Origin: Bacteroidia bacterium
GTDB taxonomy: Bacteria > Bacteroidota > Bacteroidia > Cytophagales > Cyclobacteriaceae
Length of the DNA: 46,658 nucleotides
NCBI GenBank assembly: GCA_030430675.1
Contig: JAUIKU010000008.1
Span: 1-46,658, forward strand
Reading direction: 5' to 3'
Shown: positions 1 to 30,124 of the stretch, one piece after another
How positions within the stretch are numbered: position 1 is the first letter of the stretch
Layout of the letters: each line of letters begins with the position of its first letter
Position numbers and translations under genes: made by a program
Notes under the pieces: generated by a model
Database searches by the model: none
What the model saw: the letters and a program-made list of their open reading frames with translations, nothing else
Told to the model about the DNA's origin: nothing

Positions 1-1803
1 AGGAAGAATATTGACCATCATCTGTCTGGCCTTCTCCAGGTAATCATTCCGGTAGAGATAGGTGCCCAAATAGTACAGGCTGTGCGCCATGCTGCTGTTG
101 CTGGCTGGAATCACATTATCCGATAGCTCCAACTTCCTGGTTATTAGTTCCGGGTCATCTTCTGAGGTATAAAAAAACATTCCGTTCTCCTGGTTGTAAA
201 AATGTTCCAGGACGTACTCGGTCAACTGTTCGGCTTCCCTAAGCCATTCCTCCTCGAAGGTGGCCTCGTAAATTCCAATGAATGCCTGAATTAGAAAGCT
301 ATAGTCATCCAGAAAACCATTGATGCTGGATTTGCCATCTTTGTAGTTCCTGGTCAATCCTCCATCGGATTTCCTGGCATTTTCTAACAGGAAATTGGCG
401 TTGTTTAAGGCCATATCCAAAAATTTCCGGTTCTTCATAACCCGGTAGGCATCCAGGTAGCCAATGATCATTAAGGCATTCCATGAGGTGAGTATCTTAT
501 CGTCCAAAGCTGGTGGTATTCGCCGGCTCCTGGTTTCAAACAAGTCGGTTCTGGCCTCTTTAAGTACCGCATTTAACTCCTCCAGGCTTAAGCTGTATTC
601 TTCGGCAACCCTTTCCTTTTCTACGCTAACCCGAAGAATATTTTTTCCATCTTCCCAATTTCCGTCTTCCTCGATACCATAATACGAAGAGATCACACGG
701 CCCTCATCACCCAGAACTTCCCTTATTTCACTTGCCGACCAAACGTAAAACTTGCCCTCCTCTCCCTCACTGTCAGCATCATAAGAAGAGTAAAAACCGC
801 CTTCGGGGGATGTCATCTCTCTGGCAATAAAATCCGTGGTTTCCCGGACCACTTTTTTATAAAGTGGGTTACCTGTCAGTTGATAGGACCTGGCATAGAG
901 ACTAACCAATTGGGCATTGTCGTATAACATTTTTTCAAAATGCGGCACTTTCCAATCAGGGTCAGTACTGTAGCGGGCAAAGCCACCTCCTAAATGATCG
1001 TAAAGTCCCCCTGTGGCCATAGCTTGTAAAGTGCGTTCCAGGGCTTCCAAAGACTGCTCATCTTTGTGGAAATAGTAATGTCTCATTAAGTATTGCCAGA
1101 TACTGGGTATGGGAAATTTTTGCTCTCCTTTACGCCCTCCCTTGGATAAATCCACTTCCGACATAACCTTCCGGTGCATGGCCTTTAATTCATCCGGAGA
1201 GATTTCCGATTGGTTTGAATTAAGCGTTACCGTTTCCATGGTTTGTATCCCCTCGGTTACCTTGTCGGCAATCTCCCGAAGCCGGTCCGGATCTTCCTGG
1301 TATTGCTTTACCACATGTTCCAGAATCTTCATCCAGTCACTCTTGGGGAAATAGGTGCCGGCAAAAATGGGGCGTCCATCGGGCATAGCAATCACATTCA
1401 GCGGCCAGCCTCCACGTCCGGTCATGAGATATGAAGCATCCATGTAAATCTTGTCCACATCCGGACGCTCCTCCCGGTCTACCTTAATGGAAACGAAATG
1501 CCTGTTCATGATTTCTGCCACTGCACTATCTTCAAACGATTCCTCTTCCATTACGTGGCACCAGTGACAGGCGGCGTAGCCTACTGATATTACCATCAAT
1601 TTTTGCTGGTCCTCTGCTTCACTCAGGGCTTCCTCTCCCCAGGGATACCAATCAACAGGATTGTGAGCGTGCTGTAATAGATAGGGACTACTCTCTCCCA
1701 CCAGGTGGTTGGAGTATTGGTGTTGGGCTTCCAGTACCCCATGGCGGGCGTTCTGACAGTTCGCCATGATCAGGATCAATACTACTCCAATAAATTTTGA
1801 CAT
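1..1803 (-). CDS. YyaL/SPATA20-like thioredoxin-domain protein (DUF255), 3' end off the window
   Basis: Reading from the ATG at 1803 gives 601 codons with no stop before the window edge; the family is usually about 670-700 residues, so only the C-terminus is missing. The first ~18 residues are hydrophobic and end in a Cys, suggesting a lipoprotein, though the lipobox (M-A-N before Cys) is not ideal. A thioredoxin-fold domain follows, with the CHWCHVME motif at about residues 79-86 and the family signature DREERPDVD just after it. The rest resembles an (alpha/alpha)6 glycosidase-like barrel, with [12 protein letters not shown] and [20 protein letters not shown] as recognisable family blocks. 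Family function is poorly defined. The start lies 9 bp after the stop of the DUF456 gene, so it looks like the last gene of the porV2-porU2 unit. An envelope location is inferred from the N-terminus only. Confidence 0.88.
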
Positions 1804-1812
1804 GTTTCAAGT

Positions 1813-2289
1813 TTAAATCAGCGCCTTTAGGTAGAAATATGCCATAACCAGGCATACCGCAAGTTTGACCCCAGTACCAAAAATATAGCCCAGGAAGGAA
1901 CCAAATCCCGACTTAATGGCTTTTTTCAGGTCATCTCCATTGATCAATTCCCCGATAATGGCTCCTGCAAAAGGACCTACTATTATCCCAATTGGCGGGA
2001 AAAAGAAAACCCCCAGAACCAATCCCGCTATACAACCAATAACTCCCATCCTGGACCCACCAAAGCCCTTGGCTCCCAGAACCGGTACCAGATAGTCCAA
2101 TAGTGAAACCAGCAGAGCAACCGCACCCAGAATGATCAATGTACTGGTTGAAAAATGAGCTCTGGGTGTAAGGTGCAGTAAAATAATACCGGCAAAACCC
2201 AACGGTGGCCCGGGCAACACCGGAAGAAAACAACCTATAATACCCAGTACCACCAAAATCCCCCCTAAAACAACCAGTAAGATGTCCAT
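1813..2289 (-). CDS. DUF456 family membrane protein
   Basis: A 158-residue protein that is almost entirely hydrophobic, with Gly-rich membrane segments at about residues 3-40, 48-75, 82-125 and 133-157. The blocks LPVLPGPPLGFAGIILL near the N-terminus and GPFAGAIIGELI in the middle are typical of DUF456, a small inner-membrane family of unknown function. Its ATG overlaps the TAA stop of porU2 by one base, which implies translational coupling to the T9SS-like genes upstream. No catalytic motif is visible. The family assignment is firm; no role can be given from sequence. Confidence 0.88.
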   Translation of the reverse strand: MDILLVVLGGILVVLGIIGCFLPVLPGPPLGFAGIILLHLTPRAHFSTSTLIILGAVALLVSLLDYLVPVLGAKGFGGSRMGVIGCIAGLVLGVFFFPPIGIIVGPFAGAIIGELINGDDLKKAIKSGFGSFLGYIFGTGVKLAVCLVMAYFYLKALI

Positions 2290-5200
2290 TATCTTAGTAA
2301 ATATAACTTACCATAGCCTTTTTTGAATGCTTTGTCGGCAGAAGTTTCCCGGTGTTTAAAGCTGTCCAGGTCCCTGTTCATCAGTACCCGGTAGATGTAA
2401 ACCCCATTCGCCAGCTGATCTCCGTATTCATCACGGCCGTCCCAGGCATAGTCGGTAATGTTGTTGCCTATTCGAATTACACCGATTTCGTCCTGGGTGA
2501 TCTCCCTGACCACCTTCCCGGTTACAGTCATGATCTGGATCTTCAATTGGTCCGGTATTTCCGCTCCTGTCAGGGTAAAGACAAATCTGGTACTGGTGGA
2601 GAAGGGATTTGGGTAAGGGTAGAAATTGGTAATGGTTGACTCGTTGATAACTTCAAAATTTACGGTATAGGGTTCGCTGCCGGATTTCCTTCCGCTATTG
2701 TCCTCACCCTGAACACGCAAGGTATAAATACCATCCTCCAGCTTTTCCGGTTGATATTCCACCTGGAAATCCGAATTTTCCGTAGCCTCTGTCCAACGGA
2801 CCCTGGGATCTGAAAAATTGATCCGTTGAAACTCACAGTTACTGCAATCATTGCTATTTCTTCTAATGAATAACTCCATACCCACAGTATCCTGCTTGAG
2901 GCTAAACTCGTTGTCCTCCTTCAACAACACTGTGATCACAGGGCTGGGCGATACAATATCTCCATCCAATATATGTACCCCATCGAATGTTACATCCAGA
3001 ATGGGATGGGTATCGTCACTGGCCACTTCGATGTACTGTTGAAAGTCATTCAGATTATTTCCATACCATCTTTCCGGCACCTGCTGGGGGTTTACAAACA
3101 CCCGATAGTCGTTGATTCCACTTTTTTCCCTGGAATCGATAGTAAGGGTAAATTGCACCGAATCCCCCGGCAGAGGTGCTAGAATATTAACTTCCTCCTC
3201 CAGTGAGGACCTTACGCTGCGATTAAACAAAGTACTCCTGACCAGTAAAGAGTCCGTGAATTGCTTTTGCGATAAATTGTAAAAAGTAAATCGTGAAGCG
3301 AATTGCTGTCCTTCCAATAGCGGTATTTTACTGGTCTTATCCGAATCGTTGCCCCTGAATAATAGGACTCCCTCCGGAAGTGTTTCAAAGATCACCTGCC
3401 AGCGCTTTAGTTGAGCCGGGGTAAGGGCAGCGGGGTCTTCCAGGGTAAGCTTTAGCCGCAACCAGGGAAACCTTTGGGCATCTATTCCCGACAAATCCAA
3501 CGGATCACTGGAAATCTCAGGCATCAGAACCTGTTCCTCACCCTGATGGTCAATTCCCAACAATTCCAGGGTAAACCGATCGTTGGGCTCCGTGGTTATT
3601 TGATGATGCAATGTGCTCCAACTGGCAGCGGGGCCAATTGGGGGGCTTTTAATAGCTCCTGCGCTAAACATCCCCCGTAAAGTATGGGACAGGGATATCT
3701 GCTGTTCGTTTTTTGGTATGGCCGTATTGTCATCACCCTTGATAATAACAGGCGGGTCCTGGAAAGCGCCCTTACGCCCTACCACGATAATTGGTTCACC
3801 GTTTTGCCAGGCATCGACCTCACTGACGGATACGCCTATCTGACCTAGCTGGTCCCGGGTGCTGGTCCCCCAACTGCTATAATCTACCTGGCCAATAGAA
3901 AATAGGATCACGTAATCTCCTTCCGGTACCAGGTCCAGATAAGTATCCAGCTTGAGATCGCTATTTATATCGTTGGCCTGAAAAGTATTGATTGCCTGTG
4001 GCGTCCGTCCGCAGCGATTTCTGTCCAATACATCGAACCCTCCGTCAGTCAGGACAGCATAGGGGATGGTGGAAGCCTGGTCGAAGGCAATGGCATTGAC
4101 TGAATTATCCGGACACAACCTGGTACTTACGATAAACGGTTGCCCATCTATAGTGACACTAATATTCGCGGGCTCCCCCTGGGGATGATCGGGTCCATAA
4201 GTAGTTATTTCAACCTGGTTTTCCGTTGAGGCAAATTCCCAGGAACTCAAGGATCTATTGCGCTCCAAACCGTCAGCGAAATTTTTGTCGAACTGGGCAA
4301 AACGGGCCTGAGACCAACCCTCCGGGCTATCTTCAATAAAAATAAAAGAGCTTTGTGTCCAGGTGGTATCCTCTCCTGTTCTGGGCTCGCTGAACCTGGT
4401 GCGCCAGTAGTAAACCGTGCTGTCAGATGGCAACAGACTAACTTGCCATTCAGCCAGTCCATTACCGGTGGTAGTGTGTGCCAACCTGTAGGGACTGTCG
4501 AAACTGCTGGCCGTATCCATTTCGAAAAGAAATGTCCTGGTACCAGTCAGCAAGTCACTGGACTGGGAATACAGGATAGGTTGTCTCTGATTGACAATCG
4601 CAAAATCGAAAGGACTCAAATTGACGGTGCCACCCTGAGGAATAAAAAAATTCAAAATGCCGGAATTGTTCGTTTCATCAAGCTCATCTATGCTTTGATT
4701 GAAATCCAGCACAGCCTCAAACTGGTTATTGCCAAAGTTGTTACTTTGATTGGTACGGATGGTAAAATACAGCGTATCCTGGTAGGAAACAGGGCTGAAA
4801 AAAACAGAATCATAGGTATGAACCTGTCCGTCACCGAAAGTACGCCGAACGGTCACATTGAGCGAATCTTCACTGGTTCGGCCAAAATTCCGGGTTATTA
4901 TGCCAACCTGAAAAGAATCGACCTGGGCGTTGATGGAGGCGCCGTCGAATACCTGCAGGAAAATATTTTCATTGTTAGTTTCGTAATCGGGTAGGGCTAC
5001 TGGAAAAAAACTAAAGGCAGGATCTCCCTGAAACACTTCCTGTTGAACCTGGGCTATATGAGTTTCATCCGGAGAAACGGCATTGATATAGCGGTTTCCT
5101 ACTTCCAGCAATATATCTCCTATCGGCTTGGTCAGGTAAATGGAATCACTATAGGCCAGCTCATAAAAAATGTCCGAGTAGCGCTTGAGATGGCCGGCAT

Positions 5201-13838: not shown

Positions 13839-14387
13839 TTATTTTTTGGGCTTCCAGGGTATTTCTTCCACCTGGAGCTCATGACCCATCTGTCTGCCCA
13901 GCACAAACAGGTAATCCGAGAGCCGGTTGAGGAAGACTAAAATCCATGGTTCCACTACCTCCTGTTGATTAAGAGTCACTACCCATCGCTCCGCCCTGCG
14001 GCAAACACAGCGGGCAATATGGCAAAAAGAAACACTCTGATGACCTCCGGGTAAGGTAAAGGACCGCAATTCCGGCAAGTTACCGGTCATTTCATCTATG
14101 CTCAATTCCAAAGTACCTGTAGCGTCTGTCTCCGGCTTCGGCAGCCTGGACCGGTCCAGACCGGGATCGGCAGCCAGATAGGAACCAATGGTAAATAAAA
14201 CATTTTGAATCTCTCTTAGCATGGCCACCCGTGACTGGTTTACCGGCTGGTCGCCAAGCAATCCCATGTACGCATTAAGCTCATCAATAGTACCGTATGC
14301 ATGTATGCGAATATCGGATTTATCTTTTCTATCACCACCTAACAGGGAAGTCTTTCCGGTATCTCCTCCTTTGGTATAGATCTTCAT
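13839..14387 (-). CDS. PduO-type cob(I)alamin adenosyltransferase
   Basis: A 182-residue protein that transfers the adenosyl group of ATP to cob(I)alamin to make coenzyme B12. The N-terminus [18 protein letters not shown] is the ATP-binding signature of the PduO family. [13 protein letters not shown] follows, and the C-terminal part carries CRRAERWV and [14 protein letters not shown], both typical. The start overlaps the stop of the ABC ATPase gene by 4 bp (ATGA), so the two are translationally coupled. No other B12 gene is in view. The two acyl-CoA carboxylase beta genes elsewhere in the window would feed a propionyl-CoA/methylmalonyl-CoA route that uses this cofactor, but that link is inference. 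Confidence 0.94.
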
Positions 14388-15103
14388 TTATTATCTGCTG
14401 CCGGCTTTTCCGCCTCTTGATTTAATCGGTCGGATTCTACCATACCATCCATTAACCTAATGATCCTGTGAGCAAAATGCGCAATATCATCCTCATGCGT
14501 AACCATGATTATGGTATTGCCCTGATCGTGTAACTCCTGAAACAGGTTCATGATATCGTATGATGTCTTACTATCAAGGTTACCGGTTGGTTCATCGGCC
14601 AGGATAATACTGGGCTTATTTACCAGTGCCCTGGCGATGGCTACCCTTTGCCGCTGCCCACCCGATAGCTCATTGGGTTTGTGGCTGGCACGGTCACCCA
14701 GCCCAACACTTTGCAGTGCTTCCAGGGCCTTCTGTTCCCGGTCCTCCTTCCGGTATCCCGCATAGATCAGAGGCAACGCCACATTTTCCAGGGCTGAGGA
14801 CCTGGGCAGCAGGTTAAAAGTCTGAAATACAAAACCAATTTCCTTATTTCTGATCTCGGCAAGCTCGTTGTCCGTCAACCCTCCAACGTTGTGTCCGTTC
14901 AATTCATAAACGCCCCCGCTGGGGGTATCCAGGCAACCGATAATATTCATCAAAGTGGATTTCCCCGAACCGGAAGGGCCCATAAATGCCACGTACTCAC
15001 CTTCCTCAATATTTATACTCACTGAGCGCAGCGCATGGATAACCTCGTTCCCCATCTTGTAGATGCGGGAAATGTCTTCGGTATGAATAACTCTATTTGA
15101 CAT
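14384..15103 (-). CDS. ABC transporter ATPase, MacB/LolD-like
   Basis: A 239-residue ATPase with every standard motif: Walker [10 protein letters not shown] (about residues 41-49), signature [15 protein letters not shown], Walker [14 protein letters not shown], and the H-loop in IIMVTHEDD. The sequence around the Walker motifs places it in the MacB/LolD/FtsE-type group that works with FtsX-like permeases in lipoprotein release or peptide and macrolide export. No permease gene is adjacent: upstream is the membrane-TPR protein (59 bp gap) and downstream the cobalamin adenosyltransferase (4 bp overlap). Its partner is therefore encoded elsewhere, or the upstream membrane protein is an unusual partner; the former is more likely. 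Confidence 0.92.
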
Positions 15104-15162: not shown

Positions 15163-18100
15163 TTAAGATTCTTGATCATGATATTCCTCTGTTGACTGTT
15201 GCATCAGGGTTGACTCCAGTTGCTTCAGTTCATTTAGGTAGGATAGAAATTCATCAGAGGATATCAATCCACTCAGGGTTTCCAGTGTAGTCTCCCGATA
15301 GGTATCCAGGTTTAATCGGGTACATTCCAAACCGTAAGCTTTTAGCAGTTTTGTGGAGTACCGGTTCACTTCCAGTGCTTCCAAAAGTGTATTATAGGCA
15401 GCGTAATCATCTTCCGAGGTTTTTTCAAAGTAGCTGGCCGCTTCCAGTATCCCAAATTCAAAAAATGGATTTCTGGTCAATTGATGAAAATACCGATCTG
15501 CCTGAATTTTGGAATTTTGGCTGGTTGCCAGCAGTGCCTTTCCGAGTATAACCCATGGATCCTGGGCATAGTCAAGTCCTTCCACTGCTGTCAGTAATTT
15601 TTGCAAATTGGAATGATCATCAGTAATGGCAGCCAGCTGTAGTTCTTTAAACGGTCTTTGACTTTCCCCGGATAGTGCTCCGAGCAAAGTGGTTGATTTT
15701 TGGTCAAGGGCCTGTTTCCACAACCAGGCTTCCATGCTACTGTGCAGATCAGGGTCCTGGATATCATCAAGAAGAGATGCCTTTTCAGATAATAACAATC
15801 CGGAAGAATTGAATTGCAGGTACCATATCTTCTGCTGGTCATCAAGCAGGTCCCACCGTGGCTGGTTTTGTTGAGAAAAGGCCAGCAACTTGGGGATTTC
15901 AGTATCCAAAGTATCCTTGCTGCGATATCTGTAGGTATTATAACTTCGAATCGCCATATCTATCTGCCCGGTGGCCAAAGATGCCAGTGAATTGTGTTTT
16001 AGTGCCGGTAAATAGCCATAATCTGCACTGCGTTGAAAATACTCGGTGGCCAGCATTGGCTGGCTGTTTTGCAAACTCCATTGTCCCAGAATATCATTAA
16101 TAAATCCGGCCTTTGATTCACTCCTGAACTGAAGGTCCTTCATCAGCACAAATGCCTGTTGCACATCACCGCTATAGTACATCCTAAGGGCCAGTGCAAA
16201 CTGAAGTTGATCCTGGTACATCTGATTTCGGGGCAGGTCCGACAATTTTCGCACTAAATTCAGCTGATGCGAATCAGGCCGATGTCTCTGATTGAGTTGA
16301 AAATTGTATAACCAGGAGAATGTAATAGGGTTTAATAGTGAGTCTTTAAGTAACCCGGCATCCAGTGCCAGTGCATCTTCCATCTTGTTACCCAGTACCA
16401 ATAGATTACTGCCGGTGGCTGTGGACTGATAATGCAGGGTTTCTTTCAGGCTATCCACCGTTAAGTTAAGGCCGGCCTGCATCAATACCGCCAGTTTGTT
16501 GGTTTCTGTAACCCTGGAAACTTCATCATTACCTTTAATATCATCAAGGAAATAGTAGGCAGAATCCAGAAGGTCTGTTTTGGCATACAGTATCGCCAGA
16601 TTATTTGATAGGTGTGGCTCCCCCGGAAACTCTTTTATTCCATCCTTTAACGTAAAAACAGCCTTAAAAAACATACCCTGCTCATCATAGGCCCTGGCAG
16701 TATTTACATAGGCAAAGGGGGTAGGTTGTTTGATGGTGGATTGCTTGTAGTACACCAGGGCCTGACTTATATCCTGGTTCTCTCTTTCCATGCTGGCAAT
16801 GGCATAGTTGGATCTGTGATTGGTCTTGGCATAAATGGCCGCCAGTTTGTAGTACTCCTTGGCCAATAATGGCTGTTCATCAATACGGTGCAGGTCACCA
16901 ATTCCATTGTAATATGCGGTAATGGCTTGATCCAGTGGATATTGATTAGATAGTAAAAACAATCCCAGCACCCCGATAAACCCTCCCAGTCTCATGGAAA
17001 AAAAAGGCATCTTTGTGGGTTTGTAAACCACTTTATACACCTTTAAGTTTATTATCAGTACCCCCCTGAAATTAAACAGGATGTAAATAAGAAATATAAA
17101 ACCTATACTCAACTGGCTGAACACTATTATGTCTTCCATCGCTTCTATTGCCGGATCGTTGGCGGTTGTAAAAAAGTAGCCGATAGTGACAAAACTGATA
17201 ATGGCCAAGGTCAGGTATCCCACCAGCGCATGGGGTACCAAGGGTATAATGTTGCCAAACAACGCCCCTCTTTCCCGCAGCCCCCAGATGCCAATAATGG
17301 CCGCTGCCATCAATATCCAATAGGCATCCAGATAATAAAAGTCCCAATCGATACGGCGGGTATTCCTGAGGTACAACAACAATACATTTACCAGAAAAAT
17401 CAACGAAATGGCTAAGAAATGAATAAAGCTGTTGCTGCTTTCGGGTGTATTGTTCCGGGTGATCAGTACCAGAAACCCGTAAATGATCTCATGTGCGGTT
17501 AACAATATAAAAACCACGGTAAGTCCCAAAGGAATAGCAATTCCATAGTTTACTATGTATAAAAACGGATTGGAAACGCCGCTAAAGAAGTAAACCACCA
17601 ATCCAAAGAATAAGGTTAATACCCCAAATACCATGACCCTGGTGGCCAGAGGGCTCTCTTTCCTGATAGCATGAAAATAATAACTTGCCGGAAGATAGAG
17701 CATGAAAGCCAGTATAAGCGCTACTTTATCCGTGCGATCGAACAGCAGCAATTGTTCCAGTTTGAATCCCACCATAATGAATATAAACGCTACCTGGCTT
17801 ACCATAAACCAAAATCTGCTGAGATCCACCGCCAGTGCCAGGCTTACCACCAGACAAGTAGCCAGAACTAATAACAGCAGGTGCGCAGGCCATTGCGCCA
17901 GAGTAAGGTCACTGCCCTCAAAAATTTGAGTGATCAGGTATTGATCAATACCTATGTTTAAAGGAATAGTAGCAAATTCCCAGGATTGTAATACCAGTGG
18001 TATCGGTGAAACTTTGCTAATGGTCTCCCACTGGATGACCATTCTTGAACTCCAAAAACTACTGATAATGCAGGTTAGAATTGATAACCCCAATAAAAAC

Positions 18101-18165
18101 AGTAGAGATTGATATAGATGTTTCTGAGAACTGGGCCAGGCTTTCCAGAAAGTCAGTCTACTCAT
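15163..18165 (-). CDS. Large membrane protein with C-terminal TPR/alpha-solenoid, function unknown
   Basis: A 1000-residue protein I do not recognise by name. The first ~420 residues hold about ten to twelve hydrophobic helices, starting with LYQSLLFLLGLSILTCIISSF and ending near FIGVLGLFLLSNQYPLD. After that the protein is soluble and helical. TPR-like pairs are clear at about 430-560 (AKEYYKLAAIYAKTNHRSNYAIASMERENQDISQALVYYKQS; AYVNTARAYDEQGMFFKAVFTLKDGIKEFPGEPHLSNNLAILYAKTDLLDSAYYFLDD), and a less regular solenoid continues to the end. No catalytic motif is visible. The start lies 6 bp after the gatC stop, so it shares an operon with gatC and plsC-like genes. Such polytopic-plus-TPR proteins could scaffold an envelope complex; this is a guess. 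Confidence 0.85.
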   Translation of the reverse strand: MSRLTFWKAWPSSQKHLYQSLLFLLGLSILTCIISSFWSSRMVIQWETISKVSPIPLVLQSWEFATIPLNIGIDQYLITQIFEGSDLTLAQWPAHLLLLVLATCLVVSLALAVDLSRFWFMVSQVAFIFIMVGFKLEQLLLFDRTDKVALILAFMLYLPASYYFHAIRKESPLATRVMVFGVLTLFFGLVVYFFSGVSNPFLYIVNYGIAIPLGLTVVFILLTAHEIIYGFLVLITRNNTPESSNSFIHFLAISLIFLVNVLLLYLRNTRRIDWDFYYLDAYWILMAAAIIGIWGLRERGALFGNIIPLVPHALVGYLTLAIISFVTIGYFFTTANDPAIEAMEDIIVFSQLSIGFIFLIYILFNFRGVLIINLKVYKVVYKPTKMPFFSMRLGGFIGVLGLFLLSNQYPLDQAITAYYNGIGDLHRIDEQPLLAKEYYKLAAIYAKTNHRSNYAIASMERENQDISQALVYYKQSTIKQPTPFAYVNTARAYDEQGMFFKAVFTLKDGIKEFPGEPHLSNNLAILYAKTDLLDSAYYFLDDIKGNDEVSRVTETNKLAVLMQAGLNLTVDSLKETLHYQSTATGSNLLVLGNKMEDALALDAGLLKDSLLNPITFSWLYNFQLNQRHRPDSHQLNLVRKLSDLPRNQMYQDQLQFALALRMYYSGDVQQAFVLMKDLQFRSESKAGFINDILGQWSLQNSQPMLATEYFQRSADYGYLPALKHNSLASLATGQIDMAIRSYNTYRYRSKDTLDTEIPKLLAFSQQNQPRWDLLDDQQKIWYLQFNSSGLLLSEKASLLDDIQDPDLHSSMEAWLWKQALDQKSTTLLGALSGESQRPFKELQLAAITDDHSNLQKLLTAVEGLDYAQDPWVILGKALLATSQNSKIQADRYFHQLTRNPFFEFGILEAASYFEKTSEDDYAAYNTLLEALEVNRYSTKLLKAYGLECTRLNLDTYRETTLETLSGLISSDEFLSYLNELKQLESTLMQQSTEEYHDQES

Positions 18166-18171
18166 GTATCG

Positions 18172-18459
18172 CTATTTCAGGACTTTGGGAACTTTAAAGA
18201 ATTCTTCATCTTTTTTCGGCGCATTTTTTAGTGCCTGTTCCCTGCTGATGTCTGACTTTACTTCATCTTCACGCCAAGAATTCACCTCCTGAGACATATT
18301 GGTCAAGGGATCAACCCCTTCAGTATCAACCTCATGCAACTTTTCAACCCAGTTGATCATATCATTCAAACCCTGAAGCATTTCATCTTCTGATTCATCT
18401 GAAAAATTCAATCGGGCCAAATGCGCTATCTTTAATAACGTCTCACGGTTGATTTCCAT
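18172..18459 (-). CDS. gatC: Asp-tRNA(Asn)/Glu-tRNA(Gln) amidotransferase subunit C
   Basis: A 95-residue GatC, the small subunit that stabilises the GatCAB complex, which converts Glu-tRNA(Gln) and Asp-tRNA(Asn) to the amidated forms. The N-terminal INRETLLKIAHLARLNFSDE, the central INWVEKLHEVDTEGVDPL and the C-terminal NAPKKDEEFFKVPKVL are characteristic. Its ATG lies inside the last codons of the upstream acyltransferase gene (17 bp overlap), and the membrane-TPR gene follows after 6 bp. gatA and gatB are not in the window, so the complex is encoded at scattered loci, as is usual in this phylum. Confidence 0.96.
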   Translation of the reverse strand: MEINRETLLKIAHLARLNFSDESEDEMLQGLNDMINWVEKLHEVDTEGVDPLTNMSQEVNSWREDEVKSDISREQALKNAPKKDEEFFKVPKVLK

Positions 18460-19186
18460 ATGGATGATGCTTCAATAATTCTGATTTTATAACTCTGGTT
18501 ACCTGCCCCTTTAAAGATTCCAGGTCCTGTAAACCAAGTCCTTCCGTTGGCAGTGGTTTGTGATAGATGGCAACTGAGGTTCTGCGATTCACCATTAGTC
18601 CCTGATGACTGGGTAAAATTATCCAATTGTAGGGAATAGTTACAGGAACTATTGGTATTTGTTTCTCGATGGCCACCCGGAATGCCCCATCCTTGAATGG
18701 TTCAAGTTTCGGAGGTTTCTTTTCAGTACCTCCTTCCGGGAACATAACCAAACTAATTCCGTGATCTATGGCCAATGACGCTCTTTGGATGGATTCGTAC
18801 TTGCTCTTTAGACTAGACCGATCCACCGTAATATGTACTTTCTTAAATACATAACCGAACAACGGAACTTTGGACAAGGAGCTCTTTCCTACAAAGACAA
18901 ACAGGTTACGGCTCAATCCTATCAATGGAATATCCAGGAATGAGGTATGATTGGCACAAAAAACGTATCTGGCATTTGGGTCCAACGGTGCCCTGAATTC
19001 CTGTTTTACCGGAATAAATGACAGTTTCCAAAAGAGCACTGCCCACCATCGATTTAGTATCAACGCATAGCGTCGCCATTGCTTATTCTGGATTAAAACC
19101 CAGAAAACAGGAAAAAACACCAGGAATATCAGCGCAAATACCGCCAGGCAGTATCTGGAATATAACCATCGGAGCGGCGCTTTCAT
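18443..19186 (-). CDS. PlsC-like lysophospholipid acyltransferase
   Basis: A 247-residue membrane-associated acyltransferase of the 1-acyl-sn-glycerol-3-phosphate acyltransferase group, which adds the second acyl chain to make phosphatidic acid or an equivalent lipid. One N-terminal hydrophobic helix (about residues 11-33) is followed by the catalytic HX4D motif in CANHTSFLDIPL (about residues 75-86) and the substrate-binding FPEGGTE at about 145-151. A late IPIVPVTIPYNW block corresponds to motif IV. It may be the main PlsC or an aminolipid/ornithine-lipid type acyltransferase; the motifs do not distinguish them. It overlaps gatC by 17 bp and lies 45 bp from the MATE gene. Confidence 0.92.
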   Translation of the reverse strand: MKAPLRWLYSRYCLAVFALIFLVFFPVFWVLIQNKQWRRYALILNRWWAVLFWKLSFIPVKQEFRAPLDPNARYVFCANHTSFLDIPLIGLSRNLFVFVGKSSLSKVPLFGYVFKKVHITVDRSSLKSKYESIQRASLAIDHGISLVMFPEGGTEKKPPKLEPFKDGAFRVAIEKQIPIVPVTIPYNWIILPSHQGLMVNRRTSVAIYHKPLPTEGLGLQDLESLKGQVTRVIKSELLKHHPYGNQP

Positions 19187-27969: not shown

Positions 27970-28602
27970 ATGCCTCTCAGCAGTTTTGATCCCGTTAATG
28001 CCGAACCGGTCTGGGCCTTATGGCAAATTGAGGAACCAATACAGGAATTGGAAAAGCAAATGAATCCTACCAGGTTAGAGCTATCTGAATTTGATCAGAT
28101 ACATCACCCCCGGAAAAAACTGGAATGGCTAGCTTCCAGGCTGGTCATCAAACACCTGGTGGAAAGTATGGGCAGCGCATTTCAGGGTATCTACAAGGAT
28201 GCCTTTGGCAAACCACATTTGGTTGGACTTCCTTATTCTATTTCTATTGCACATTGTTTCCCGTTTGCGGTGGGTGCTATCGCCAAAGACCACCCGCTGG
28301 GAATTGACATCGAAATGCCTCAGGATAAGCTGCTGCATATACGTGATAAATTCCTCAATGATAGGGAGGCCAAAATGGCCGGCACAAATCTGGAAACACT
28401 GTGTAAATTCTGGACCGCCAAGGAAGTGCTTTACAAAATTTACGGCAGGAAAAAACTCATCTTTAAAGAACACATGGAAGTTTCGGAAATTTCCACTGCG
28501 CCCGGTCTGTTAAGGGGAGATATCCGTTACCAAAATTTCTGCAGGGGATATAACATCATATCCAGACAACTCCATGGCCATTTTATTTCCTACAGTGCCT
28601 GA
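27970..28602 (+). CDS. 4'-phosphopantetheinyl transferase superfamily protein
   Basis: A 210-residue Sfp/AcpS-like enzyme that loads phosphopantetheine from CoA onto carrier proteins. The fold halves are visible: the RKKLEWLASRLVIKHLVE block, the central ISIAHCFPFAVGAIAKDHPLGIDIEMP with the Mg-binding Asp and Glu, and FWTAKEVLYKIYGRK, which matches the W(T/S)xKE(A/V)xxK motif. It could serve the fatty-acid ACP or a secondary pathway; no carrier protein or synthase gene lies nearby. Its 3' end overlaps the glycosyltransferase start by 29 bp. Confidence 0.93.
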   Translation: MPLSSFDPVNAEPVWALWQIEEPIQELEKQMNPTRLELSEFDQIHHPRKKLEWLASRLVIKHLVESMGSAFQGIYKDAFGKPHLVGLPYSISIAHCFPFAVGAIAKDHPLGIDIEMPQDKLLHIRDKFLNDREAKMAGTNLETLCKFWTAKEVLYKIYGRKKLIFKEHMEVSEISTAPGLLRGDIRYQNFCRGYNIISRQLHGHFISYSA

Positions 28603-30124
28603 TCAAAAATATATTCTGTGGGGATTTATTTTGCTAAAGTTCTTCTTGCAATACCTGGCCATTGATCAGGTTTATGAACTACACCGGGACGAATATCTTC
28701 ACCTTGATTTAGGCAAACATCTAGCCTGGGGGTATTCTTCTGTGCCTCCGGTTACCGGCTTGCTTTCCTGGTTGATTGTTAAACTGGGTAATTCTGTGTT
28801 CCTGGTTAAATTTTTCCCTGCCCTGTTTGGCGCCCTAACCCTGGTAGTGGTCTGGAAAACGGTGAAATTCCTGGGAGGAGGGACATTTGCCTTGATCCTA
28901 AGTGCAACTTGTATACTCTTTTCCGCGCTGCTCAGGGTTAACACACTGTACCAGCCCAATTCACTGGAATACTTAATGTGGACCCTGGTTTTCTACTACC
29001 TGGTACGTTATACAGCATCCGGTCTCAGCCGATGGTTGTGGTTGGCTGCGGTATCTTTTGCTATTGGTTTCCTCAATAAATACAATATCACTTTCCTATT
29101 AATCGGACTGACTATCGGGATTTTTTTGTCTCCGGCCAGAAGCCTATTACGGAGCAGGCAGCTTTTTTATGCCACAGGTCTTGCTCTGATTTTAGTCATG
29201 CCTACTTTGATTTGGCAGTTTCTAAACGGTTTCCCGGTATTTCATCACTTGCAGCAACTTTCCGATAATCAACTGGCCGTCAATTCGTGGTCCGGATTCT
29301 TGATCGAGCAGCTGTTCTTTTTTACCGGCTCTTTGTTAATAATTTTACTGGGCCTGATCTCGTTTTTTAGCCATAGTGCCTTCAGAAAGTATGTCTATAT
29401 TTTCTGGAGCTATCTGATCATAATAGCAATGTATTCCTGTTTAAAAGCAAAGGGTTATTACGCCATTGGTCTTTATCCCATACTGATAGCATTTGGCAGT
29501 GCTTACCTGGAAAAACTTCTCCAAACCGGCTGGGTCAGATACTTACGTCCATTGGCAATCGCACTGCCCGTATTGTCATTTCTCCCAGTCTTCAGTCTGG
29601 TGTTACCAGTGCTGCCACCGGAATCGATCATTGCCAAATCTGATCAATTCGAAAAACATGGATTGCTGCGCTGGGAGGACGGTCAGAATCATACCCTTCC
29701 TCAGGATTTTGCAGATATGCTGGGTTGGCGGGAACTTGCTGCCAGGGTGGACAGCGCCTTAAACCTGGTTCCCGACAAAAAGTCAACTTTGATCCACTGC
29801 GATAACTACGGGCAGGCCGGGGCTATCAACTACTATTCTAAAAACAAATATTATGATGCAGTCTCAATGCATGCTGACTACATAAAGTGGTACCCGCTTG
29901 ATGAAATGGAAATAAAGCATGTAATCCTGGTACAGCAGGCCAACGACACTGACCCCGGACGAGAACGCGAAAGAAATTTGTTCGAAAACGTCCTCACTAT
30001 TGGTGCAGTTGAAAATATTTATGCCAGAGAGTATGGCACCAAGGTTTATCTTTTGGAGTATGCCAAGCAGTCGATTAATGATATTTTACAAGAGGAGATG
30101 AATAACAAGGACACTGACCACTGA
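28574..30124 (+). CDS. GT39/ArnT-like membrane glycosyltransferase
   Basis: A 516-residue GT-C type protein with about ten to twelve membrane helices in the first ~350 residues and a soluble C-terminal domain. The catalytic acidic pair sits in the first external loop, ELHRDEYLHLDLGKHLAWGY (about residues 35-55), which matches the DE motif of PMT/ArnT-like enzymes. These use lipid-linked sugars to modify proteins or lipids on the periplasmic side. The acceptor here is unknown. The ATG at 28574 lies within the phosphopantetheinyl transferase gene (29 bp overlap). The C-terminal domain has HCDNYGQAGAINYYSKNKYYDAVSMH, which resembles related glycosyltransferases. Confidence 0.88.
   Translation: MAILFPTVPDQKYILWGFILLKFFLQYLAIDQVYELHRDEYLHLDLGKHLAWGYSSVPPVTGLLSWLIVKLGNSVFLVKFFPALFGALTLVVVWKTVKFLGGGTFALILSATCILFSALLRVNTLYQPNSLEYLMWTLVFYYLVRYTASGLSRWLWLAAVSFAIGFLNKYNITFLLIGLTIGIFLSPARSLLRSRQLFYATGLALILVMPTLIWQFLNGFPVFHHLQQLSDNQLAVNSWSGFLIEQLFFFTGSLLIILLGLISFFSHSAFRKYVYIFWSYLIIIAMYSCLKAKGYYAIGLYPILIAFGSAYLEKLLQTGWVRYLRPLAIALPVLSFLPVFSLVLPVLPPESIIAKSDQFEKHGLLRWEDGQNHTLPQDFADMLGWRELAARVDSALNLVPDKKSTLIHCDNYGQAGAINYYSKNKYYDAVSMHADYIKWYPLDEMEIKHVILVQQANDTDPGRERERNLFENVLTIGAVENIYAREYGTKVYLLEYAKQSINDILQEEMNNKDTDH

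Follow-up and report, generated by a model that had tools for sequence, protein, structure and literature searches.

The window analyzed here, positions 1 to 46,658 (46,658 nucleotides) of contig JAUIKU010000008.1 from a Bacteroidia bacterium of the family Cyclobacteriaceae (order Cytophagales; GenBank assembly GCA_030430675.1), carries a minus-strand gene for a 1,000-residue membrane protein. We are highly confident that this gene belongs to an ortholog family encoding a core inner-membrane protein of the whole order, with a polytopic N-terminal part of 11 predicted transmembrane (TM) helices followed by a long solenoid of tetratricopeptide repeats (TPRs). Consecutive repeats of the solenoid carry conserved asparagines, among which N522 and N556 align with the peptide-binding asparagine ladder of O-GlcNAc transferase (OGT). 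We tentatively propose that the protein is an inner-membrane-anchored periplasmic arm, which would hold extended polypeptide by its backbone and serve in the biogenesis of envelope proteins. A sequence-only reading of the window had described an uncharacterized polytopic protein with a long TPR solenoid; our results support that interpretation and add the near-universal occurrence of the gene in the order, the conserved asparagine ladder, and a layout already known in eukaryotes from the TMTC proteins.

The open frame starts with ATG, and the plus-strand reading of the same positions contains stops throughout. Its codon-position GC content resembles that of the adjacent genes. Because orthologs in many genera keep the frame, it is not a chance frame; three relatives from metagenome-assembled genomes of Cyclobacteriaceae share 59, 64, and 58% identity with the window protein. 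Coordinates of this gene, its parts, and its principal neighbors are given in Table 1.

Distribution of the ortholog family

A profile of the TM part matched 281 of 292 Cytophagales genomes, a sample restricted to genomes at least 95% complete. All 11 misses fall in one family of reduced genomes (0.7 to 1.9 Mb), which we infer from genome size to be the Amoebophilaceae, the Cytophagales family with Cardinium and Amoebophilus. Retention in 281 of the 292 Cytophagales genomes sampled, with absence where the genome is reduced, makes a basic role in the cell envelope probable. The full-length protein, used as query, found matches in 55 of the 59 related genomes, some of these matches being fragments at contig ends. 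Among the papers listed in literature searches, we recognized none that concerned this family.

Outside the order the gene is rare. Matches in the phylum sample were limited to 16 of 392 genomes, 15 of them from the window's own order (the window genome included) and one weak (E = 8e-4). The type IX secretion system is phylum-wide; since the gene is nearly confined to its order in the phylum sample, with a single weak match outside it, a core role in that system is not favored (the secretion genes themselves were not searched). In the class sample, where members were counted only if the match spanned the TM part at E < 1e-40, the TM part was found in eight genomes from other orders (families f90, f69, f108, and f120); the class-sample matches as a whole (258/296) lay mostly in the TPR region and were not counted as members. 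Four of the eight share neighbors with the window: gatC in G586 and G419, gatC and plsC in G559, and plsC, gatC, the ATP-binding cassette (ABC) ATPase, and the adenosyltransferase in G372. These common neighbors support the orthology of those four. The other four had no such same-strand neighbors in the stretch examined, the upstream side of one (G527) being cut by a contig end.

Six frames of 945 to 996 residues from family f103, which belongs to another order of the same class and has small genomes of 1.8 to 2.2 Mb (G508, G442, G544, G526, G385, and G488), matched the profile weakly at about residues 282 to 589 (E = 5e-18 to 4e-20), roughly from TM8-TM10 into the TPR region. They were left out of the counts and are possibly very divergent orthologs.

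Conservation was assessed in a set of 101 full-length proteins, made up of the window protein and 100 loci (20 + 20 + 60) picked from the matches listed; large contigs were favored and the loci are not independent. A smaller alignment (A1) comprised 36 loci and omitted L003 (contig end), L026, L031-L033, L037, L039, and TPR-only loci. The genome-search match underlying L026 (genome G055, 1501-4476) contained an in-frame TAA, yet the locus itself holds a 999-residue frame.

The membrane part

In single-sequence hydropathy, the last of 11 TM segments ends by residue 406, and we read the family-averaged profile as 11 also, once split peaks are merged. The division into membrane helices and TPR solenoid given by the sequence-only reading holds, with residues 1 to 408 as the membrane part and TPR-type sequence in the remainder. 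The first periplasmic loop is predicted to be long (residues 38 to 93), and K/R outnumber D/E in the putative cytosolic loops. On the basis of the odd TM count, the predicted N-in orientation, and this positive-inside charge pattern, the C-terminal TPR arm is predicted to lie on the periplasmic side.

Conservation peaks in TM10 and is also high in the outer loop that precedes it and in the cytosolic loop that follows it (residues 367 to 388). Three polar residues at the predicted cytosolic face are nearly invariant, N365 (100/101), Y361 (96/101), and R176 (95/101). In the first outer loop, acidic columns reach 53% at most (best within residues 35 to 96, n = 101); elsewhere on the outer side, D or E is found at position 337 in 84%, at 137 in 82%, and at 345 in 76%. 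Overall, conservation of the TM part is similar to that of the membrane-proximal TPR segment. AlphaFold2, given an alignment of four sequences (that of the window plus three from close relatives), produced a model whose mean predicted local distance difference test score (pLDDT) is 47.6 overall and 40.7 over residues 1 to 443.

Naturally reduced variants illustrate which parts of the protein can be lost. Eight genomes from two genera of family f11 scored low in the order sample, and six of these were examined; all six (2.5 to 3.2 Mb; loci L273-L278) encode forms of 704 to 742 residues, and these are separate from the 101 full-length sequences. Each variant lacks the TM3-TM4 hairpin and can be aligned over TM1 and TM2, with the first loop between them, and over TM5-TM11. 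Loss of two helices leaves the TPR arm on the same side of the membrane. Hydropathy gives 7 to 9 segments at threshold, and nine TM helices is our reading. In an alignment of the six variants and the window protein only (seven sequences), residues 746 to 890, a middle TPR stretch, hardly align; residues 891 to 1000 hardly align there either, and the C-terminal piece of each variant (6/6) matches the end of the profile. N365, together with N556, N587, and N621 of the arm, is kept in all six, and position 361 is F rather than Y. We read the reduced form as a minimal working core.

The TPR arm and its asparagine ladder

Several profile comparisons identify the arm as a TPR solenoid. Pfam TPR models match the window protein alone below threshold (E = 0.04 to 0.07), and TPR_19 matches 28 of 36 relatives (best E = 8.8e-13). 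In comparisons with the family profile, a designed TPR protein matched at E = 8e-59 and an OGT chain at E = 6e-19. The AlphaFold2 model has helices throughout the arm, with block pLDDT values above 60 mainly at about residues 710 to 930. A Foldseek search with the full model listed 50 matches, all of which we read as TPR-type or similar helical-repeat scaffolds, the bacterial protein LbcA among them. Within the arm, conservation is greatest next to the membrane, at residues 409 to 545. A single weak PADLOC match in the TPR region (E = 0.0067) led us to reject a defense protein.

Asparagines at position 6 of TPR helix A stand out in the conservation profile. Among the 101 sequences, asparagine is found 43 times at N488, 88 at N522, 100 at N556, 98 at N587, and 88 at N621; in the eight orthologs from outside the order, which are part of the 101, the corresponding counts are 7, 7, 7, 8, and 7. 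From N522 onward the spacing is 34, 31, and 34 residues. Five of the 17 arm columns conserved at 85% or more are asparagine, four of them at ladder positions. Residues 546 to 640 average 23% pairwise identity, and the top three columns by conservation there are N556, N587, and N621. A HMMER alignment pairs N522 with the asparagine that designed TPRs have at position 6. In the alignment with human OGT, N488 and N522 fall on OGT asparagines, and N522 and N556 do so in a second register. With an offset of +22 on the OGT fragment numbering, which was fitted from the match to the ladder residues in PMC10618255 and not looked up, these are N366/N400 (for N488/N522) and N264/N298 (for N522/N556), all four of which are named as OGT ladder residues in the accessible text of that paper. 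According to the accessible parts of PMC8586251 and PMC10618255, the OGT ladder asparagines bind the peptide backbone with no sequence preference. By alignment and repeat spacing, then, consecutive repeats of the arm are predicted to carry the position-6 asparagines of an OGT-type ladder. The observation of this ladder is new here, and it makes the question of function directly testable.

Proposed role of the arm

We suggest the following mechanism. The 11 TM helices would anchor the TPR superhelix in the periplasm, with three to five consecutive repeats carrying the position-6 asparagine, as in the OGT ladder. The groove would grip extended or unfolded polypeptide through its backbone, close to the periplasmic surface of the inner membrane. 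Clients of the arm might be exported or membrane proteins (flexible stretches of surface proteins or lipoproteins, for example), which the arm would present to the TM domain or a partner to be folded, assembled, or modified. By analogy with OGT, polypeptide binding by the ladder is a reasonable conjecture, at somewhat less than even odds.

Several observations weigh against this proposal. Asparagine is the usual TPR residue at position 6 and is present in designed TPRs. Only 43 of the 101 sequences have N488, and both N488 and N522 are lost in the six reduced variants. N587 and N621, which the HMMER alignments do not reach, were assigned from the 31/34 spacing together with predicted helices. 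Model confidence at the ladder is low (block pLDDT 35 to 56), so that groove-facing geometry is at most putative. The ladder was noticed post hoc, after the conserved columns had been viewed, and the chance figure of 0.00048, for four random positions, was likewise computed after the ladder had been seen. A control TPR family also keeps two position-6 asparagines, 34 residues apart (206 and 240 of the reference). With regard to core status, 4 of the 59 related genomes lacked a match: G003 and G004 (drafts from the window's own genus), G043 (a small genome from another family), and G057; the first three lie outside the sample used with the TM profile.

The control family, a TPR protein of about 470 residues, often starting with MTGD, occurs across the order (L048, L049, L051, L282-L297, and L299); 17 of these 20 loci were used, the other three having shorter proteins. 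Its 17 sequences are more conserved overall (52% mean identity), and of its 115 columns that reach 85% conservation, 6 are asparagine. The ladder of the window family is stronger than in that single control, yet it has precedent in TPRs.

A rival explanation, which we regard as possible and somewhat less probable than our proposal, is that the protein is a general protein-protein scaffold, with the TM part serving as an anchor only, the TPRs docking folded partners in secretion, gliding, or outer-membrane assembly, and the asparagines reflecting the TPR consensus. TPR domains mostly have such functions, the Foldseek matches listed are helical-repeat scaffolds, and the two conserved asparagines of the control family fit a consensus explanation. 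A mere anchor would not need to be as conserved as the membrane-proximal TPRs or to keep R176, Y361, and N365 nearly invariant, and within residues 546 to 640 the asparagines outlast the remaining columns.

Gene neighborhood

As the sequence-only reading had noted, the gene is packed 6 bp behind gatC and lies upstream of an ABC ATPase gene. The gap to the ATPase gene is 59 bp, and all three genes are on the minus strand. That reading had also placed it among envelope and lipid genes, which is true in part: the plsC-like acyltransferase and a MATE transporter gene, both upstream, fit the description, whereas gatC, a cobalamin adenosyltransferase (Pfam), and the neighbors that we take from their translations, without a scan, to be ilvE and prfB are housekeeping genes. 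No significant hairpin was found in the 59-nt gap before the ATPase gene (z = -0.87).

Table 1. Positions of the gene, its parts, and its neighbors in the window
Feature	Position	Strand	Basis
Gene for 1,000-aa polytopic membrane protein with C-terminal TPR solenoid	15163..18165	-	Open frame and orthologs
Membrane part, residues 1-408, predicted N-in with 11 TM	16942..18165	-	Hydropathy, conservation
TM3-TM4 hairpin, residues 118-166, missing in reduced variants	17668..17814	-	Alignment
TPR solenoid, residues 409-1000, predicted periplasmic	15166..16941	-	Profile matches
Putative asparagine ladder, codons N488, N522, N556, N587, N621 (TPR helix A position 6)	16303..16704	-	N587 and N621 by spacing
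gatC, usual upstream neighbor	18172..18459	-	Pfam GatC E = 4.5e-23; within 250 nt on same strand in 56/100 loci
plsC-like acyltransferase, second gene upstream	18443..19186	-	Neighbor in 22/40 loci
MacB/LolD-like ABC ATPase, usual downstream neighbor	14384..15103	-	Pfam; within 900 nt on same strand in 53/100 loci

Proximity to the ATPase raises the possibility, which we consider improbable, that the protein is a permease-like or regulatory partner of this MacB/LolD-like ATPase, with the loop at residues 367 to 388 coupling the two and the arm taking up the exported or extracted substrate. The highest-scoring models for the ATPase are MacB, LolD, and DarD (each below its cut-off), and the loop at the cytosolic face is conserved. 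Among the rows listed, the ATPase copies adjoining orthologs are 68 to 83% identical to that of the window. Across the 100 loci, scored for the same strand, the ATPase lies within 900 nt downstream in 53 and gatC within 250 nt upstream in 56; both are present in 33 and neither in 24, leaving 20 with the ATPase and, by this test, no gatC. Sixteen of those 20 come from family f11, and two are not truly free of gatC (in L219 the longest frame overlaps gatC, and in L222 gatC is 322 nt away), so that few independent cases of pairing remain. Conversely, 47 loci have no ATPase within 900 nt, 23 of which retain gatC; in two of the 47 the ATPase is 1.2 to 1.7 kb away. MacB and LolD ATPases, moreover, normally pair with FtsX-like permeases of four TM helices.

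Comparison with known families and systems

The gene is nearly universal in its order, yet our searches of Pfam and PDB placed its membrane domain in no family. For the window protein, the TM part matched nothing in Pfam at E values up to 1, and the TM-part profile gave a best E value of 2 against PDB, in agreement with the sequence-only reading, which could name no family. A set of 42 TM parts hit 12 Pfam families, one member each (best E = 0.028), with no PMT or TMTC match. Profile comparisons were also made with Wzy_C (21 proteins), PMT_2 (18), TMEM260-like proteins (18, cut by locus ends to 551 to 726 residues), MSEP-CTERM (5), and MATE (from 6 loci), and gave probabilities of 0.1 to 3.5%, compared with 0.1 to 7.7% for reversed decoys. 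As positive controls, near and far family members matched each other at 99.8 to 100% and PMT_2 matched TMEM260 at 94 to 97%. The alignment with O-antigen ligases or mannosyltransferases that the sequence-only reading had named as giving the protein an ordinary role was therefore not obtained: scores for Wzy_C (0.3 to 2.3%, with no Pfam match), PMT_2 (0.5 to 3.5%), and TMEM260 (1.0 to 2.4%) are all within the decoy range.

MSEP-CTERM proteins (TIGR04286) resemble the window protein in length (about 936 to 983 residues) and in having an N-terminal polytopic region; we read their C-terminal part as not TPR-type. This assignment was rejected, the TM profiles giving 0.2% probability, the window genome having no match at E <= 0.001 (cut-off 150 bits), and the model being absent from the NCBIfam matches of the window protein. 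MSEP-CTERM was above its cut-off in 5 of the 59 related genomes, all of which carry the window gene as well.

A membrane glycosyltransferase of the GT-C, TMTC-like, or O-antigen-ligase-like kind, with the TPRs as a substrate-binding tail, is the most doubtful of the readings considered. TMTC1-4, as described in the accessible text of PMC7801869, are N-in proteins with 11 TM helices in 426 to 475 residues and about ten lumenal TPRs, and are assigned as GT-C O-mannosyltransferases; the layout is equal to that predicted for the window family, and the long loop is the first periplasmic one. The TPR ladder of OGT, too, feeds a transferase, according to what is available of PMC8586251 and PMC10618255. 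Six distant sequences compared with PMT_2 under the flag -glob 0 gave 16.3% (E = 3.4e-4). Without that flag the same set gave 3.5%, against 7.7% for a reversed decoy; with it, a decoy made by reversing O-antigen ligases scored 12.6% with the full set. PMT_2 itself gave only 0.9 to 1.6% with the full 42-sequence set. The sugar transferases found in the accessible part of PMC7801869 each have an aspartate in the first outer loop, whereas acidic columns there do not exceed 53% in the window family, and because a conserved first-loop acid is missing we do not file the protein under GT-C. The conserved outer acids at 337, 137, and 345 make an unlike active site conceivable; E137, however, lies within the hairpin absent from the reduced variants. 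The window also contains a separate PMT_2 glycosyltransferase gene on the plus strand (28574-30124; match at 28742-29215, E = 1.6e-21).

With TMTCs, then, the window protein shares 11 TM helices, the N-in orientation, TPRs on the outer side (here by prediction only), and a long TM1-TM2 loop. It differs in a first outer loop that has neither DD nor another conserved acid, and in a TM7-TM8 loop of 7 residues in place of the DUF1736 segment of TMTCs. With OGT it has in common a TPR superhelix in which position-6 asparagines are conserved in consecutive repeats; it differs in having no catalytic transferase domain detected by Pfam, in the joining of the arm to a membrane domain in what is predicted to be the bacterial periplasm, and in fewer conserved ladder positions. 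LbcA, the adaptor of the protease CtpA, is likewise a bacterial TPR solenoid, matched by both Foldseek and sequence profile. It is a lipoprotein, whereas the TPRs of the window protein are part of an 11-TM protein. There is also a small chance that the family is a new membrane machine, in which the 11-TM domain, as yet unassigned, would modify, insert, or extract chains fed to it by the asparagine-ladder arm. Such a machine would be a bacterial counterpart, by convergence, of what is seen in TMTC and OGT, and would be present in almost all sampled genomes of the order, the reduced-genome family excepted.

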